Positions 1,811-53,918 of a DNA stretch of 64,000 bases are shown piece after piece (position 1 is the stretch's first letter; every line of letters starts with the position of its first letter). Under the pieces are notes generated by a model, which saw nothing but the letters and a program-made list of their open reading frames with translations, did not search any database and was not told where the DNA came from. The stretch comes from Fibrobacter sp. Lineage in GTDB: Bacteria > Fibrobacterota > Fibrobacteria > Fibrobacterales > Fibrobacteraceae. The stretch is taken from positions 1-64,000 of the forward strand of contig JAKSIM010000008.1 of assembly GCA_024398845.1 (NCBI GenBank), read 5' to 3'. A program made the position numbers and the translations under genes.

Positions 1811-3478
1811 TTAAAAAGCTTTCTCCTTAATTACATTGATAACGTTACGCTGTTCCTCAGTTAAGTCTCTAGGAATTTGGAAATCAAAGAAGTTATGATT
1901 CCAGAACTTAAGAACATCATAGGATTTGTTGAAAAGTTTTCTTCCCAACAAAGTAACTTCCGCACCGGCTTCCACGACCCAGCCGCCATCAAGCTTGACA
2001 TAACCCGTATCCGGGATAAATCCAACCCAAGTGCCTCTGTCAGAGAATTGTTTTTCGGAACCAAATTCACCATTTAAGTTAAAGCGATACCCTACGGCAA
2101 GAGTAGGCCCAGCAACATTGTACAAGAGGCAAGCGACTTTAAAATAAACTCCAGCAGAAGCCTTTCCGGTGAGCGTCAAATCCAAATTCGAGAAAATTTC
2201 TTTCCAGTTGCCGTCATTTGCGCTTCTGGTACTGGAGCCTTCGTTAATTCCCTTCACCGAAGATCCCTTTTCCCAAGAAAGGCCAACCTTTGACGTACTC
2301 GTCGTTTTCAACTGCCAGTTATAATTCATCAGTGCATAAGCCTGTGCATTATATTTAAACACCAAATTCGGTTTAATCGTAATAGCAACGGGAACAACAC
2401 CCACCATAAACACGAATGTTTTTCCACTGAAGTTCGTCAGTTTGAATTCACCCGTACTAGCGCCACCCAATCCAAGGCCGAGATTCGAAATATCGTAGCC
2501 GCCTTCAGATTTGATATAAGCAGCAAACTTGTTCGGGATACCCCAAGAAGTAGAAATATCCAGGAACAAATCAACTTTAGACCTATAATGAAGCGTATCC
2601 AAGCGGACAAAAGCCTTTATGGTATTTATCGCCTTGCCTCTGCTTGAGCCTGTATCTTTAGGAACAATGCCGTCATAATTGCCCGTCATGGCCTTATCAA
2701 TCAAACCAGACAAAACATAAGAATAATTATCCGCATCTTTTACGGCTTTAGATATGTCAATCAGCCCCGGATGAAATTCATAATCAAAATTGATGACATT
2801 CCAGCTCTTCGATCCGTTTGCCGTCACAAGCTTTCGAACATCCACATATTCGTTTTCTTCAAACGGGTTTTCTTTACAAGAGTAACATATAGTGTTTGAA
2901 ATGCCATTTTCATCCGAAAGTTCTTCCGGTTCATTAATAACAACTACAGGGTGGTACGAATTATCCTCCTTATTGTAAAATACTCCAGCCCCGAGATCGT
3001 TAGAATTTTCATTCATTTTATTCGGATCAAAATATATATCCGTGCCAAACTTGTAGTCGCCATCGGGCATCGCGTTAAAAACGGTCGCCGGATCCACGTC
3101 AATAAGCATGCGTTCCTTGTCCATCTTTGTAGAACGGACACGTAAATAGAACGGAGCTTTATTGACAGCATCCCACACGACAACGACATTACCTGTTTTT
3201 GGCAAATCGCTTACATCCTTCGCATAGAGGGTATCCACAGAAATCTGGGTAGTATCAGCATCCATGATTTTGACATCACCCGGAGAGAGAAACTGATCAT
3301 AGCGATACACGACAACTTTTGAAGAATCTTCGTGAGTCGCCATAGAGAGTGCAACACCAACATCTGCATCTGTATCGGCCTCGGCTTCGGCAGCCACCGC
3401 TGACGTAGAACTATCATTTGAGCAACCCGCAAAAAATGCAAGTGCCAAAATTGGAAAAGAAAGTAACAGCTTCTTCAT
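1811..3478 (-). CDS. Large lipoprotein of unknown function
   Basis: A 555-residue protein if started at the ATG at 3476-3478, which is preceded by AGGGGAA; the longer frame upstream has no good start. It begins MKKLLLSFPILALAFFAGC, a lipoprotein signal with lipobox FAGC, then NDSSTSAVAAEAEADTDAD, an acidic spacer. The mature part is rich in Tyr, Asp and Gly with alternating hydrophobic segments, and contains a CYSC pair near the middle. No catalytic motif or named family was recognised. It has its own transcription unit, convergent with the gene to its left. A surface or periplasmic binding or structural role is possible but not shown. Confidence 0.6.
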   Translation of the reverse strand: MKKLLLSFPILALAFFAGCSNDSSTSAVAAEAEADTDADVGVALSMATHEDSSKVVVYRYDQFLSPGDVKIMDADTTQISVDTLYAKDVSDLPKTGNVVVVWDAVNKAPFYLRVRSTKMDKERMLIDVDPATVFNAMPDGDYKFGTDIYFDPNKMNENSNDLGAGVFYNKEDNSYHPVVVINEPEELSDENGISNTICYSCKENPFEENEYVDVRKLVTANGSKSWNVINFDYEFHPGLIDISKAVKDADNYSYVLSGLIDKAMTGNYDGIVPKDTGSSRGKAINTIKAFVRLDTLHYRSKVDLFLDISTSWGIPNKFAAYIKSEGGYDISNLGLGLGGASTGEFKLTNFSGKTFVFMVGVVPVAITIKPNLVFKYNAQAYALMNYNWQLKTTSTSKVGLSWEKGSSVKGINEGSSTRSANDGNWKEIFSNLDLTLTGKASAGVYFKVACLLYNVAGPTLAVGYRFNLNGEFGSEKQFSDRGTWVGFIPDTGYVKLDGGWVVEAGAEVTLLGRKLFNKSYDVLKFWNHNFFDFQIPRDLTEEQRNVINVIKEKAF

Positions 3479-49780: not shown

Positions 49781-50581
49781 TCAATTTTCAACGCAAACAC
49801 CATTTTCGATATGGCCTCTTTTTCCACCATATTCTTCTGTTTCGCATTCCATTTCGTCATTTTCATTCCAATCACAATTCAGCCTTATTCCAAACTCAGT
49901 CAAACAAGGTTTTTCAACATGCATACAAAGTCCTTCCACACCGCAGGTTCCATCGTTCCATTCTCCGTTGCAGTCATAGTCGTTGACTTCAACGCCACAA
50001 CGTTTTCTTCCATCATCAAAAGTAAGAACCCGGCAATTTGCCTTTTCCGAAAGGACCTCGCCCCTACCAACCCTTTGATCACCTAAACGCACCCCAAGAA
50101 GTTTTGTACTCACGACCTTACATGATACGTTGTATTCAATTTCAAGTGAATTTTTATCCGTTTTCATGCATAAACTCGAGCCTTCGACTTTACTACCCTT
50201 GACCCACTTGCCCTCGTCGCAAATGTAGGACGCTTCTATTTTTTTACCGCCAGCGACATCAACGCAGAAGTCATTCATGGCAGCTTCGCATTTCGGGAGT
50301 TTTTCGTATTCGGTAACCAACACGTTAATTGGCATCCATTCGCCTTCAAAACATGTGAAAAAGCCCTTTTCATCAAATACTTGAACAGCAATACCATCGA
50401 ACTTGTCGCAACTCGGCAAGTCGGACTTTGAGTCAAACACCTTGACATCTTTCCAAATACTTGCGTTTTTCTTTACATCATTCGATGGAGCGGAGCTGCT
50501 GGAATCATCAGAACATGCAACAGCACCGAATAAGGCAACACAAAGTACGCTAGCCAATAGAAGTTTGGAGTAATTTTTCAT
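49781..50581 (-). CDS. Cys-rich lipoprotein
   Basis: A 266-residue lipoprotein (MKNYSKLLLASVLCVALFGA, lipobox AVAC, then SDDSSSS). The mature protein has about 16 Cys and two related modules: LPSCDKFDGI...FFTCFEGEWMPI (about 55-85) and LPKCEAAMND...YICDEGKWVKG (about 94-128), each a LPxC start and a CxxGxW end. The rest has further Cys pairs, suggesting several disulfides in the periplasm or on the surface. I know this LPxC/CxxGxW module only as a pattern common in Fibrobacter lipoproteins; no function is known. Monocistronic with its own terminator. Confidence 0.65.
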   Translation of the reverse strand: MKNYSKLLLASVLCVALFGAVACSDDSSSSAPSNDVKKNASIWKDVKVFDSKSDLPSCDKFDGIAVQVFDEKGFFTCFEGEWMPINVLVTEYEKLPKCEAAMNDFCVDVAGGKKIEASYICDEGKWVKGSKVEGSSLCMKTDKNSLEIEYNVSCKVVSTKLLGVRLGDQRVGRGEVLSEKANCRVLTFDDGRKRCGVEVNDYDCNGEWNDGTCGVEGLCMHVEKPCLTEFGIRLNCDWNENDEMECETEEYGGKRGHIENGVCVEN

Positions 50582-50688
50582 AACGGAACCACCTTGTTAA
50601 AAAACACCGTTCAAACCTAATGTATGCAAAAAAGCAATTTTTGGATAAAAAAAATTACATTCAGGTTATTCTATATTAGATTAGCGAT
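50582..50688. promoter_or_regulatory. Divergent intergenic region
   Basis: This 107-base A/T-rich gap separates the Cys-rich lipoprotein gene from the binding-protein/peptidase unit. TATATT at about 50669-50674 could be the -10 box for the plus-strand gene, but no matching -35 at 17 bases was seen. Confidence 0.3.
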
Positions 50689-51756
50689 ATGCGGCACTAT
50701 TTTTCTCTTTTTTTTCTAATTCCTTTTGGGCTCTTCCTTTTTAGTGCCTGCAGCAATTCGTCGCCAGTTTCAACCGAAGATACCGAACAAGCGAACTTTT
50801 ATTCCGTTCTCACCGTCTACTCGCCCAACGGGCTTGGTGACTTGAGTTACAACGACAATATCTACAAGGGATTCCGCGAAGCCTTGAAAGCTCACGAAAA
50901 TCTCGCCGTCGAAGCGTACACTCCAATTGACGAAGACGATGCAGAAAAGGTCATTGAACTATGGTTTGCCGAAAAAGACAACCCGGCAGTCAACGACTTT
51001 GTCAAGAAGCGACTTCTCGTTTTGACCGATGCGTCGTTTGAAACGCTTCTAGAAAATCACAGCGACTGGAAAAATTCCGACGGGAACGAAATTCTGTGGC
51101 TCGATAGCCGCAATCTCGATTCTCTGGACGTGTACAGCAGATACATTCCTCTCTACGGCGCAAGCCATTTGGCAGGGCAAGTCATTCATGAGTTCGGCGT
51201 AAAAAAAGCAGCCTGCGTCCTCGCCAATCCTGAGCTTGAGCCGCTAGAACAATCGCTCGAAGGATTCAGGGACGGATTCAAAGAATCCGGCGGAACGTTT
51301 GACGCAAATGACGTTTATTACCTGGCGACAAGCGCAAGGGCGGGCTTCAATATGGCCGACAGCCTTTACCGTCTTTCGTACAAACTGGATTCCATAGGGT
51401 ATCGTTTTGTATTCCCCGTGGCGGGCGGTTCCAGCGCCGGGATTCTGCGTTACACCCGTGAATTTGCCGACAGCAATACGTTCTACACCTGCGGCATGGA
51501 TTCCGACCAACAGACATATTCAAAACGAGTCGCATTCTCCGTGATAAAGCGCATGGATACCGTAGTCAAGGATTTCGTGAATCAATGGATGGCGGATTCA
51601 ACACCTGAATTGACGAAAACTTACGGGCTATTGGACGGCTACGCAGACATCGTCATCGCCGATGCGTTCAAGGATGCCGAAAGCAAATACGCAAAGCAGC
51701 GCGAAATCGCCGCAAAAGCAGAAGAAAACTACTTGAAGAAAACAGGACGGAGATGA
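50689..51756 (+). CDS. BMP/PnrA-like substrate-binding lipoprotein
   Basis: A 355-residue lipoprotein (lipobox FSAC at residues 18-21). The mature part opens with VLTVYSPNGLGDLSYNDNIY then KGFREAL, which matches the GxxDxSFNxxxxxG start of BMP-family proteins such as PnrA (nucleoside binding), and has VFPVAGGSSAGILRY and CGMDSDQQTYSKRV in the usual places. It should fold as a two-lobed periplasmic binding protein. No permease or ATPase gene is near, so it may sense or present a ligand rather than feed a transporter. Its stop overlaps the start of the next gene by 4 bases (ATGA), so the two products are probably made together. Confidence 0.8.
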   Translation: MRHYFSLFFLIPFGLFLFSACSNSSPVSTEDTEQANFYSVLTVYSPNGLGDLSYNDNIYKGFREALKAHENLAVEAYTPIDEDDAEKVIELWFAEKDNPAVNDFVKKRLLVLTDASFETLLENHSDWKNSDGNEILWLDSRNLDSLDVYSRYIPLYGASHLAGQVIHEFGVKKAACVLANPELEPLEQSLEGFRDGFKESGGTFDANDVYYLATSARAGFNMADSLYRLSYKLDSIGYRFVFPVAGGSSAGILRYTREFADSNTFYTCGMDSDQQTYSKRVAFSVIKRMDTVVKDFVNQWMADSTPELTKTYGLLDGYADIVIADAFKDAESKYAKQREIAAKAEENYLKKTGRR

Positions 51757-53918
51757 AAATGAAAAAGATTTTATTTCTATCCTGTTTCCTACTTTTGGCG
51801 AGCCTTTTCTGCACGGCATGTTCCGAAAATTCGTCAACAAGCGAATCCAGCAGCGAAGCGTTTCCCTTGAAGAAAGTCAAAATCGCGATGATCCTCCCCC
51901 GCGACGAAATCAACGCCAAGCGGTACGATAGGCTCGTAAACTGGTTTGACGAAAATTTATCCAAGACGCGCCAAGTGATGCAAACTCTAACAGATTCCGC
52001 ATTCACCTTTGAATACGAATGGTACGACGAAAATACGGTAAACATCGATAGCGTCTCGAGGGCGCTCGCCAAGCGGAAAGACATTTTCGCCATCGTCGGA
52101 CCAAGGAAATCAAGCAATGTCGATATTGCGGCAAGTAACTGCGCCCGCACAGGCAAGACGCTCTTTGCGCCAACGGCGACTTCTGCAGAAATCATCCGCA
52201 AGTACGCCCACAAAAAATGGTTCTGGGCTCTTTCCGAAACGGACATCACCCAAAGCGAACTTCTCATTGCACAGGCGCAGGCGTATGGAGCAAAGAAAAT
52301 TTCCCTGCTCTCTTCGGACGGAATCATCGGGAAAACGTTCGTAGACTGGTTCGCATTCCAGGCAAAAGAACTCGGTGTCGAAATCGGGAAAATCCACACC
52401 TACAACGGGGCAGAAAACCTGGAAACTACAGCAAAAGCAGCAATGGATGACGAGAGCGACATCGTCATCGTCGCCCCGGAAAAAAAGGAAGATGTCGAAG
52501 TCATTCTCCAGGCACGGCAAAAATCCCGGAACAAGCCCATTTTGCAGTTCTCCGATGTCGCTTTTGCTCCTGCCATACTCACCTATGAAGGCTCAGAAGG
52601 CATTGAGGGAACATCCATGTATGCCGACCCCGAATCCGGATTTGAAATTGCTTACGAAGTGCAGTTTGGCGAAGTTCCGGTCAACAGCGAAGCCCAGGTT
52701 TACGACGCCCTGTTGATTTTAGCCTTTGCCGAAACAGACATATTGAATGGAAACGCAAGCGATTTGGACGAAGCCATCACGCATGTGGTTGCCGATTCCG
52801 CAAAATCCGAATACATCGCCTGGGACTACGAGGGCATGAGCCGCACCATGGCGGGCATCGCTTCGAGCGACTATTACAACATCCGCGGTGCAAGCGGAAA
52901 ACTGAACTTCGACAGCGAAAACGGTTCCGTCGTCACGCAATCCATTTACTGCCACTGGATGATTTACGAAGGCAAATTTCTGCCGCTGGAATATATTTCC
53001 GCAACCGGCTCCAACAGGACTTCGGCGACACTCGCCAGCTGGAACTGGAACACGACCAAGATGCAGAAGTTCAACGAAGGCGGGAAATTCACCTACCCCG
53101 AACACAAATCCAACTACGCACTTCTTGTCGCCGCTTCCAAAACCTGGGAGAATTACCGCCACCAAGCCGACATTCTGAACGTGTACCAAATCTTGAAATA
53201 CCTCGGCTATGACGACGACCACATCGTTTTGATTATGGAAGACGACCTCGCCGAGAACCCACAAAATCCCCACATGGGCGAAGTCCGCCGACACGACGGG
53301 CAAAACCTGTACGTTGACGTGAACGTGGATTACAAGCTTAAGGATTTGGAAAGCGGAGACATCGTGAAAATTTTAATGGGGCAAAAAAGTACAAGGTTGA
53401 AGCACGTGATTGATGCCGACTCAAGCACCGATGTTCTTGTCTACTGGAGCGGACACGGCACCCCGAATTTCCTTGCATGGGGAGAGAAATCTGCTTTTAC
53501 GTACAACCAAATGGAGACAGCCCTCAAGGAACTTCACGAAAGCGCCAAGTACCGCAAAATGCTCTGGCTTATTGAAGCCTGCTTCAGCGCAAGCGTCTGT
53601 GCTGCCGCCGAAGACAGCGAAATTCCAGGCGTCATGTGCATCACCGCCGCCAACGAGAACGAGACCTCCAAGGCCGATGTTTATAACAACGACTACGGCG
53701 TTTACATGACGAATCGCTTTACCGAAATTCTCACCGGGCTCCTCAGCGAAGTGGTCGCCAAGAAACAGGCAGGCGAAACACCGGACATGCAGTTCAGCGA
53801 CATCTACTATCATCTTTTCAAATACTCGCTCGGTTCCCACGTCACTGTGGTCAATGCGAGTAATTTTGACAACCTCTACACCGCCGGCATACGCGAGTTC
53901 ATCGTACCGATGAAGTAA
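51753..53918 (+). CDS. Binding protein fused to a legumain/Gpi8-type (C13) cysteine peptidase, lipoprotein
   Basis: A 721-residue lipoprotein (Cys23 in CTACSEN). Residues about 40-410 form a type I periplasmic binding domain like leucine/amide receptors (VKIAMILPRD, IFAIVGPRKSSN, LFAPTATSAEII, ISLLSSDGIIG, AQVYDALLILAF). Residues about 450-640 match C13 peptidases, close to GPI-transamidase Gpi8: YALLVAASKTWENYRHQADI, YDDDHIVLIMEDDLAENPQN, YVDVNVDYK, then VLVYWSGHGTPNFL with His568 and MLWLIEACFSASVC with Cys610, the expected His-Cys dyad. The ATG at 51759 with GGAG six bases upstream is an alternative start. Such a fusion would let a ligand control a peptidase outside the inner membrane; its substrate is unknown. 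Confidence 0.85.
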   Translation: MKMKKILFLSCFLLLASLFCTACSENSSTSESSSEAFPLKKVKIAMILPRDEINAKRYDRLVNWFDENLSKTRQVMQTLTDSAFTFEYEWYDENTVNIDSVSRALAKRKDIFAIVGPRKSSNVDIAASNCARTGKTLFAPTATSAEIIRKYAHKKWFWALSETDITQSELLIAQAQAYGAKKISLLSSDGIIGKTFVDWFAFQAKELGVEIGKIHTYNGAENLETTAKAAMDDESDIVIVAPEKKEDVEVILQARQKSRNKPILQFSDVAFAPAILTYEGSEGIEGTSMYADPESGFEIAYEVQFGEVPVNSEAQVYDALLILAFAETDILNGNASDLDEAITHVVADSAKSEYIAWDYEGMSRTMAGIASSDYYNIRGASGKLNFDSENGSVVTQSIYCHWMIYEGKFLPLEYISATGSNRTSATLASWNWNTTKMQKFNEGGKFTYPEHKSNYALLVAASKTWENYRHQADILNVYQILKYLGYDDDHIVLIMEDDLAENPQNPHMGEVRRHDGQNLYVDVNVDYKLKDLESGDIVKILMGQKSTRLKHVIDADSSTDVLVYWSGHGTPNFLAWGEKSAFTYNQMETALKELHESAKYRKMLWLIEACFSASVCAAAEDSEIPGVMCITAANENETSKADVYNNDYGVYMTNRFTEILTGLLSEVVAKKQAGETPDMQFSDIYYHLFKYSLGSHVTVVNASNFDNLYTAGIREFIVPMK

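Follow-up and report, generated by a model that had tools for sequence, protein, structure and literature searches.

The window analysed here, a stretch of 64,000 nucleotides from the gut/rumen bacterium Fibrobacter sp., contains a two-gene unit in which the gene for a PnrA/BMP-like lipoprotein overlaps a gene that joins a type I periplasmic binding protein (PBP-I) domain to a legumain-type C13 cysteine peptidase domain. This paired receptor-protease is a real and conserved unit: it is supported by searches of protein families, by catalytic residues that do not vary, by a conserved coupling of the two genes and by their perfect co-occurrence. The best explanation, held with evenly balanced confidence, is a ligand-gated two-component protease of the envelope that would clip neighbouring client lipoproteins; in a sister clade these clients are probably pore-forming antibacterial proteins. 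Both open reading frames lie where the original prediction had placed them, at 50689-51756 and 51753-53918 on the forward strand, and the four-base overlap between them is indeed present, as an ATGA at 51753-51756. The unit is laid out as follows:

50689..51756, + strand: PnrA/BMP-like lipoprotein gene, putative second receptor, 355 amino acids, lipobox Cys21 (profile against PDB, PF02608 in 9/17 members, PnrA fold)
51753..51756, + strand: ATGA, the stop of the 355-residue gene overlapping the start of the fusion gene by 4 bases, read from the sequence as translational coupling
51753..53918, + strand: PBP-I::C13 fusion gene, predicted lipoprotein receptor-protease, 721 amino acids (Pfam, invariant residues, AlphaFold2 model, Foldseek)
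51753..51821, + strand: signal peptide and lipobox with the predicted lipidation site Cys23; both Cys23 and Ser24 unchanged in the 17 homologs
51870..52982, + strand: type I periplasmic-binding (LivJ/ANF_receptor-like) domain, approximately residues 40-410 (PF01094, PF13458; folds of LivK 3td9 and LivJ 4gnr)
53001..53081, + strand: variable low-confidence linker, residues 417-443 (pLDDT <50; 1/29 columns invariant)
53112..53915, + strand: C13 peptidase domain, residues 454-721 (PF01650 2.9e-47; legumain TMt 0.89), with no C-terminal prodomain and no transmembrane helix
53454..53456, + strand: catalytic His568, invariant
53580..53582, + strand: catalytic Cys610 in the EAC motif, invariant

Both parts of the fusion protein were recovered by Pfam. 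Peptidase_C13 (PF01650) matched residues 454-685 at 2.9e-47, with 161.8 bits against a cut-off of 22.8, and the binding domain matched ANF_receptor (PF01094; 3.7e-10, 39.8 bits, cut-off 25.4) as well as Peripla_BP_6 (PF13458; 3.2e-09, 37.3 bits, cut-off 31.7). The AlphaFold2 model has a pLDDT of 79, with two well modelled domains and a poorly modelled linker at 417-443. In Foldseek, legumain (TMt 0.89) and GPI transamidase (0.72) matched the C-terminal part of the model, and LivK/LivJ (TMt 0.77-0.80) its N-terminal part. With both families over their cut-offs and both folds matched, the joining of the two domains that had been proposed from the sequence is borne out. The same applies to the proposed His568/Cys610 dyad: His568, the oxyanion Gly569, Glu608 and Cys610 are, together with the lipobox Cys23, unchanged across 17 homologs. 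The likeness to the GPI transamidase subunit Gpi8 stands only in part. GPI-anchor transamidase was the best match in a single-sequence search of the PDB (9.8e-32), in which legumains also matched, but a profile search with the fusion family ranked legumain above Gpi8 and thus brought the protein no closer to Gpi8 than to legumain.

When aligned with legumain, the window protein keeps Arg44 (Arg469), His45 (His470), Ser216 (Ser639), His148 (His568) and Cys189 (Cys610), the last two of which we take to be the catalytic residues in legumain numbering. At the position of His470 the sister clade has Phe, and the position of legumain Asp231 is occupied by Asn654, which is invariant in all homologs. 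In legumain, the Asn/Asp-selective S1 pocket is shaped by Arg44, His45, Ser216 and Asp231 (PMC4357240). Since the pocket residues Arg469, which is invariant, and Ser639 are kept, a specificity for Asn or Asp at P1 is likely for the fusion, with some uncertainty. The fusion thus has in common with legumain (MEROPS C13) the fold, the His-Cys dyad, the S1 Arg within NYRHQAD and the EAC motif. It differs in being a predicted bacterial lipoprotein, in having Asn654 for Asp231, and in its architecture: legumain carries a C-terminal AP/LSAM prodomain, whereas the fusion stops at the peptidase domain with residue 721 and has instead an N-terminal PBP-I domain. On structural grounds, ligand gating is suspected mainly because the inhibitory prodomain is missing and a binding domain is present at the N-terminus instead.

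The partner protein of 355 amino acids gave no significant match in Pfam when searched alone, and PF02608 (Bmp) is matched by 9 of the 17 members of its family, the window member not being among them. A profile of the family matched Lbp (7x0r, 1e-11) and TmpC/PnrA (2fqw, 2e-4) in the PDB, and PnrA structures were the best fold matches of its structure model. The lipobox Cys21 is invariant in the family, and the motifs GMDxDQ and GDxSxxD are present. The partner is thus a predicted PnrA/BMP-type lipoprotein, for which nucleoside-type binding is a prediction. The nucleoside-binding PnrA/BMP lipoproteins (PF02608) share with it the fold, the GxGDxSxND and GMDxDQ motifs and the lipobox; the partner differs from them in being translationally coupled to a protease and in having no ABC permease or ATPase nearby. 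As had been noted before, no transporter genes are found within approximately 5 kb of the pair; ABC permease and ATPase genes are not among the window neighbours and are not evident in related loci either. A component of an ABC transporter was rejected on this ground.

In a survey of 168 Fibrobacterota genomes, fusion and partner were found in the identical 18, and the partner is located directly upstream of the fusion, overlapping it, at each of the 19 loci, so that the expectation that the BMP-like gene travels with the fusion held throughout. The overlap is ATGA in 6/6 loci of the window clade and 14 bases long in the sister clade. Both genes are under purifying selection, with a ratio of nonsynonymous to synonymous substitution rates (dN/dS) that was, in the eight pairs computed, ~0.07-0.18 in the case of the whole fusion and 0.11-0.20 in that of the partner. 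A second BMP and PBP-C13 pair, 42% identical, is present in the window genome (G000:C52:13517-16719, locus L083). Four further genomes (G067, G068, G075 and G111; loci L087, L088, L091 and L092) contain C-terminal C13 remnants only, which suggests that the module has been lost repeatedly. Distant, weak PF01650 matches elsewhere in the phylum, which among those examined include a caspase (C14) protein, were left out of these counts. In G135 (L103/L023), which is among the genomes counted, an apparent frameshift separates the PBP part of the fusion from its C13 part.

Outside the phylum, one genome (G355) in a broad bacterial sample contained the same fusion, in two places. On its contig C185 the C-terminal half of the fusion is cut by the contig end. 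Another contig, G355:C38, ends with a BMP homolog followed by the ATGA-overlapping start of a PBP domain of the same type (L150:8043-9938; Pfam Bmp 3e-24, Peripla_BP_6 5e-11), which is possibly the missing 5' part of the C185 copy. Evidence for mobility comes from a DNA match to a metagenome-assembled genome of Fibrobacter from horse faeces, on the same contig as G085:

50196..53918, + strand: block with 92% DNA identity to the horse-faeces Fibrobacter contig, its end being the fusion stop codon (blastn against L090)

Beyond this block the neighbours differ between the window and the horse-faeces genome. Because the match stops exactly at the stop codon and the flanks differ, the unit behaves as a movable cassette. 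A phage or plasmid origin was considered and rejected, with no match in 72,556 plasmid records or in viral contigs. A defence-system protein was likewise rejected, a weak caspase match (1e-4) being the only one in PADLOC.

Candidate clients of the protease were found in the sister clade, where a lipoprotein gene on the same strand lies immediately upstream of the module at all 13 loci. The gap between the tagged lipoprotein gene and the module is 30-75 bases in the 12 loci measured, and in L103 the two are similarly close by coordinates. A MACPF protein (PF01823, ~1e-13) is encoded at 12 of the 13 loci, a linkage that is absent from the window genome, and several of these loci also encode a protein with a Fib_succ_major domain. 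Both types of lipoprotein share an N-terminal domain of ~130 residues that has only a weak likeness to BACON in Pfam:

L086, L089, L093-L096 and L098-L103: tagged lipoproteins upstream of the BMP gene, with a BACON-like N-terminal domain ending in QxYxGDYxDN

Among 80 Fibrobacter genomes this tag domain has 25 copies in 15 genomes, namely the 13 fusion-carrying genomes of the sister clade plus two that have remnants (G075 and G111). All copies except one lie within a few kb of a fusion or remnant, the remaining copy being on a small separate contig, and none of these 80 genomes has a tag-domain locus that can be shown to be unlinked to the module or to one of its remnants. The association of tag and module has a Fisher p of 7e-10 among genomes that are related. 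MACPF genes located away from the module (G067, G078, G092 and a second one in G104) are not among the tag matches. The domain ends in QxYxGDYxDN; 7 of the 24 columns that are invariant across both client classes fall into this motif, its Asn included, and immediately behind the Asn, at the start of the MACPF or Fib_succ_major part, the sequence similarity ceases. This Asn, located in a probable linker between domains, is a plausible and natural candidate for the cut site of a C13 peptidase cleaving after Asn.

A mechanism that would combine these observations starts with the fusion lipoprotein, whose type I binding domain would sense a small molecule (amino-acid-like, to judge by the fold) and thereby control the tethered C13 peptidase. 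The co-translated PnrA/BMP-like lipoprotein would act as a second, nucleoside-type receptor and partner. With ligand bound, the peptidase would cut adjacent client lipoproteins after Asn (or Asp), and the cut would free or activate the part of the client beyond its lipid-anchored N-terminus. In the sister clade, where the tag ending in QxYxGDYxDN is followed by MACPF or Fib_succ_major, a cut at the Asn would set free or switch on an antibacterial pore-former. We infer gating from the architecture; cleavage, cut site, surface location and antibacterial role are inferred as well. The wider proposal, that a module conserved across two phyla recognises its clients by the QxYxGDYxDN tag, cuts after the Asn and so launches MACPF pore-formers and other effectors, is tentative and rather doubtful.

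Several observations weigh against this explanation. The change from Asp231 to Asn654 means that the specificity may differ from that of legumain. The sister-clade loci are related, and the linkage counts are hence not independent; one of these loci (G097) has a Fib_succ_major client only. In G355 the complete copy of the fusion has no partner alongside and is followed by a propeller lipoprotein gene instead. In the window genome, which is 83% complete, no MACPF match and no tagged client were found, and QxYxGDYxDN was sought without success in the neighbourhood of the window copy and in the window-clade loci. The toxin reading hence cannot be universal.

It might also be that the unit is an envelope protease with a house-keeping or nutritional role, whose two binding domains would bind peptides, amino acids or nucleosides while the C13 domain would degrade proteins for nutrition, the lipoprotein neighbours being a coincidence of a variable hotspot. 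Small lipoproteins are abundant at Fibrobacter loci and the neighbours vary among clades, in keeping with this, and with no transporter nearby other uptake systems would be needed. However, a tag domain with no demonstrably unlinked locus is unexpected for a random hotspot, and the patchy presence in 18/168 genomes would be odd for a basic nutritional enzyme, so that we consider this explanation unlikely. Regulated proteolysis, in which the ligand-activated C13 domain would cleave an anti-sigma factor or another membrane regulator and not secreted clients, would suit the window clade, which has no evident effector client, and the architecture is similar to that of an ANF_receptor-metacaspase known from a single Cyanothece protein (PMC3501461). 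There is no regulator gene that consistently adjoins the module, though, and a lipoprotein offers no membrane-spanning signal path; a signal-transducing receptor is quite improbable on this evidence.

The MACPF linkage on the same strand at 12/13 loci could also point to immunity, with the receptor-like lipoproteins as decoys that shield the producer from its own MACPF toxin and the C13 domain destroying excess toxin. There is a precedent in producers of BSAP-1, which have a protective receptor orthologue adjoining the toxin gene (PMC7872030). We give this little credence, since seven genomes have the module but no MACPF gene above the family cut-off, and the module likewise occurs without one in another phylum. 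The original prediction had considered a ligand-gated peptidase or transpeptidase with two receptor modules that might process or anchor surface proteins. The receptor-fused C13 peptidase and its obligately paired receptor stand; transpeptidation or anchoring has no support. A transpeptidase or sorting enzyme following the logic of GPI transamidase or of gingipain-type sortases would agree with the membership of Gpi8 in C13 and with its first rank in the single-sequence search; against it are the higher rank of legumain by profile, the absence of a Gpi8 partner subunit or recognised sorting signal in the families scanned, and an occurrence in 18/168 genomes that does not fit a core sortase, which makes it highly improbable. 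Compared with Gpi8/PIG-K, the fusion shares the NYRH and DDxAxNPxNP motifs in addition to the PDB match, and differs in having no transmembrane helix, no partner subunits among the neighbours scanned, no GPI substrate and a profile nearer to legumain. We prefer the ligand-gated protease with neighbouring lipoprotein clients.

Precedents exist for separate parts of this design. The fusion of a clan CD protease to ANF_receptor has been noted once, in the metacaspase of Cyanothece PCC 7424 (PMC3501461), which likewise joins a PBP-I-type ligand-binding domain to a clan CD cysteine peptidase but belongs to C14, is a single described sequence and has no paired BMP lipoprotein. Surface-exposed MACPF lipoproteins of Bacteroidota (BSAPs) kill related strains, and some carry an N-terminal BACON domain whose role is unknown (PMC12853789). 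The CDCL toxins, which are related to the BSAPs, need proteolytic activation by clan CD proteases of the C11 type (PMC11952106). These C11 proteases (fragipain and the CDCL activators) are, as proposed for the fusion, surface clan CD lipoprotein proteases acting on secreted toxins; they differ in being Arg/Lys specific and in having neither a receptor domain nor, as described there, a dedicated co-transcribed pair. The earlier statement that no system of this design had been described thus needs qualification by the Cyanothece protein (PMC3501461) and the toxin-activating proteases of Bacteroidota (PMC12853789, PMC11952106). No account of a C13 protease fused to a receptor, of such a protease paired with a BMP lipoprotein or of its linkage to MACPF proteins was found in a literature search that mostly did not extend to subscription journals; it returned nothing relevant on bacterial or Fibrobacter C13 peptidases, and only general papers on MACPF and Fibrobacter. 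New here, and the strongest clue to function, is that in the sister clade the module is linked to MACPF lipoproteins with the tag; the precedents are single and for separate parts.

If the mechanism is true, bacteria would fire surface-tethered pore-formers only upon a chemical cue, with sensor and scissors in one polypeptide, which would be a bacterial analogue of the sensing-triggered activation of complement or perforin. It would also provide a first concrete role for bacterial C13 peptidases together with a cleavage motif that can be tested, and would serve as a comparison in asking how receptor control came to be combined with clan CD proteases. On a more modest reading, two genes form an obligate receptor-protease unit, which would not be recognised from family annotation alone.

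The window copy is surrounded by genes for NAD kinase, EPSP synthase, prephenate dehydrogenase, chorismate mutase, a small lipoprotein, GH16 and a GntR regulator. The small lipoprotein is a candidate client of this copy:

49781..50581, - strand: divergent small lipoprotein, candidate client, without Pfam family; a relative adjoins the module in G085

What the loci have in common is a receptor-protease cassette next to secreted lipoproteins of various kinds. The neighbours in G086/G087 are an M30-like metallopeptidase and a lipoprotein without assigned family; in G087 the metallopeptidase is a lipoprotein encoded two genes upstream of the module (L084:2814-4733). A lipoprotein at 1856-3478 on the minus strand of the window, without Pfam family, is ~51% identical to one located divergently upstream of the module in G086/G087. 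In G355, the complete PBP-C13 gene is followed closely by a gene for a DUF6528/propeller lipoprotein, and the truncated copy by a related gene (L081:2627-4918 and L082:5310-6227).

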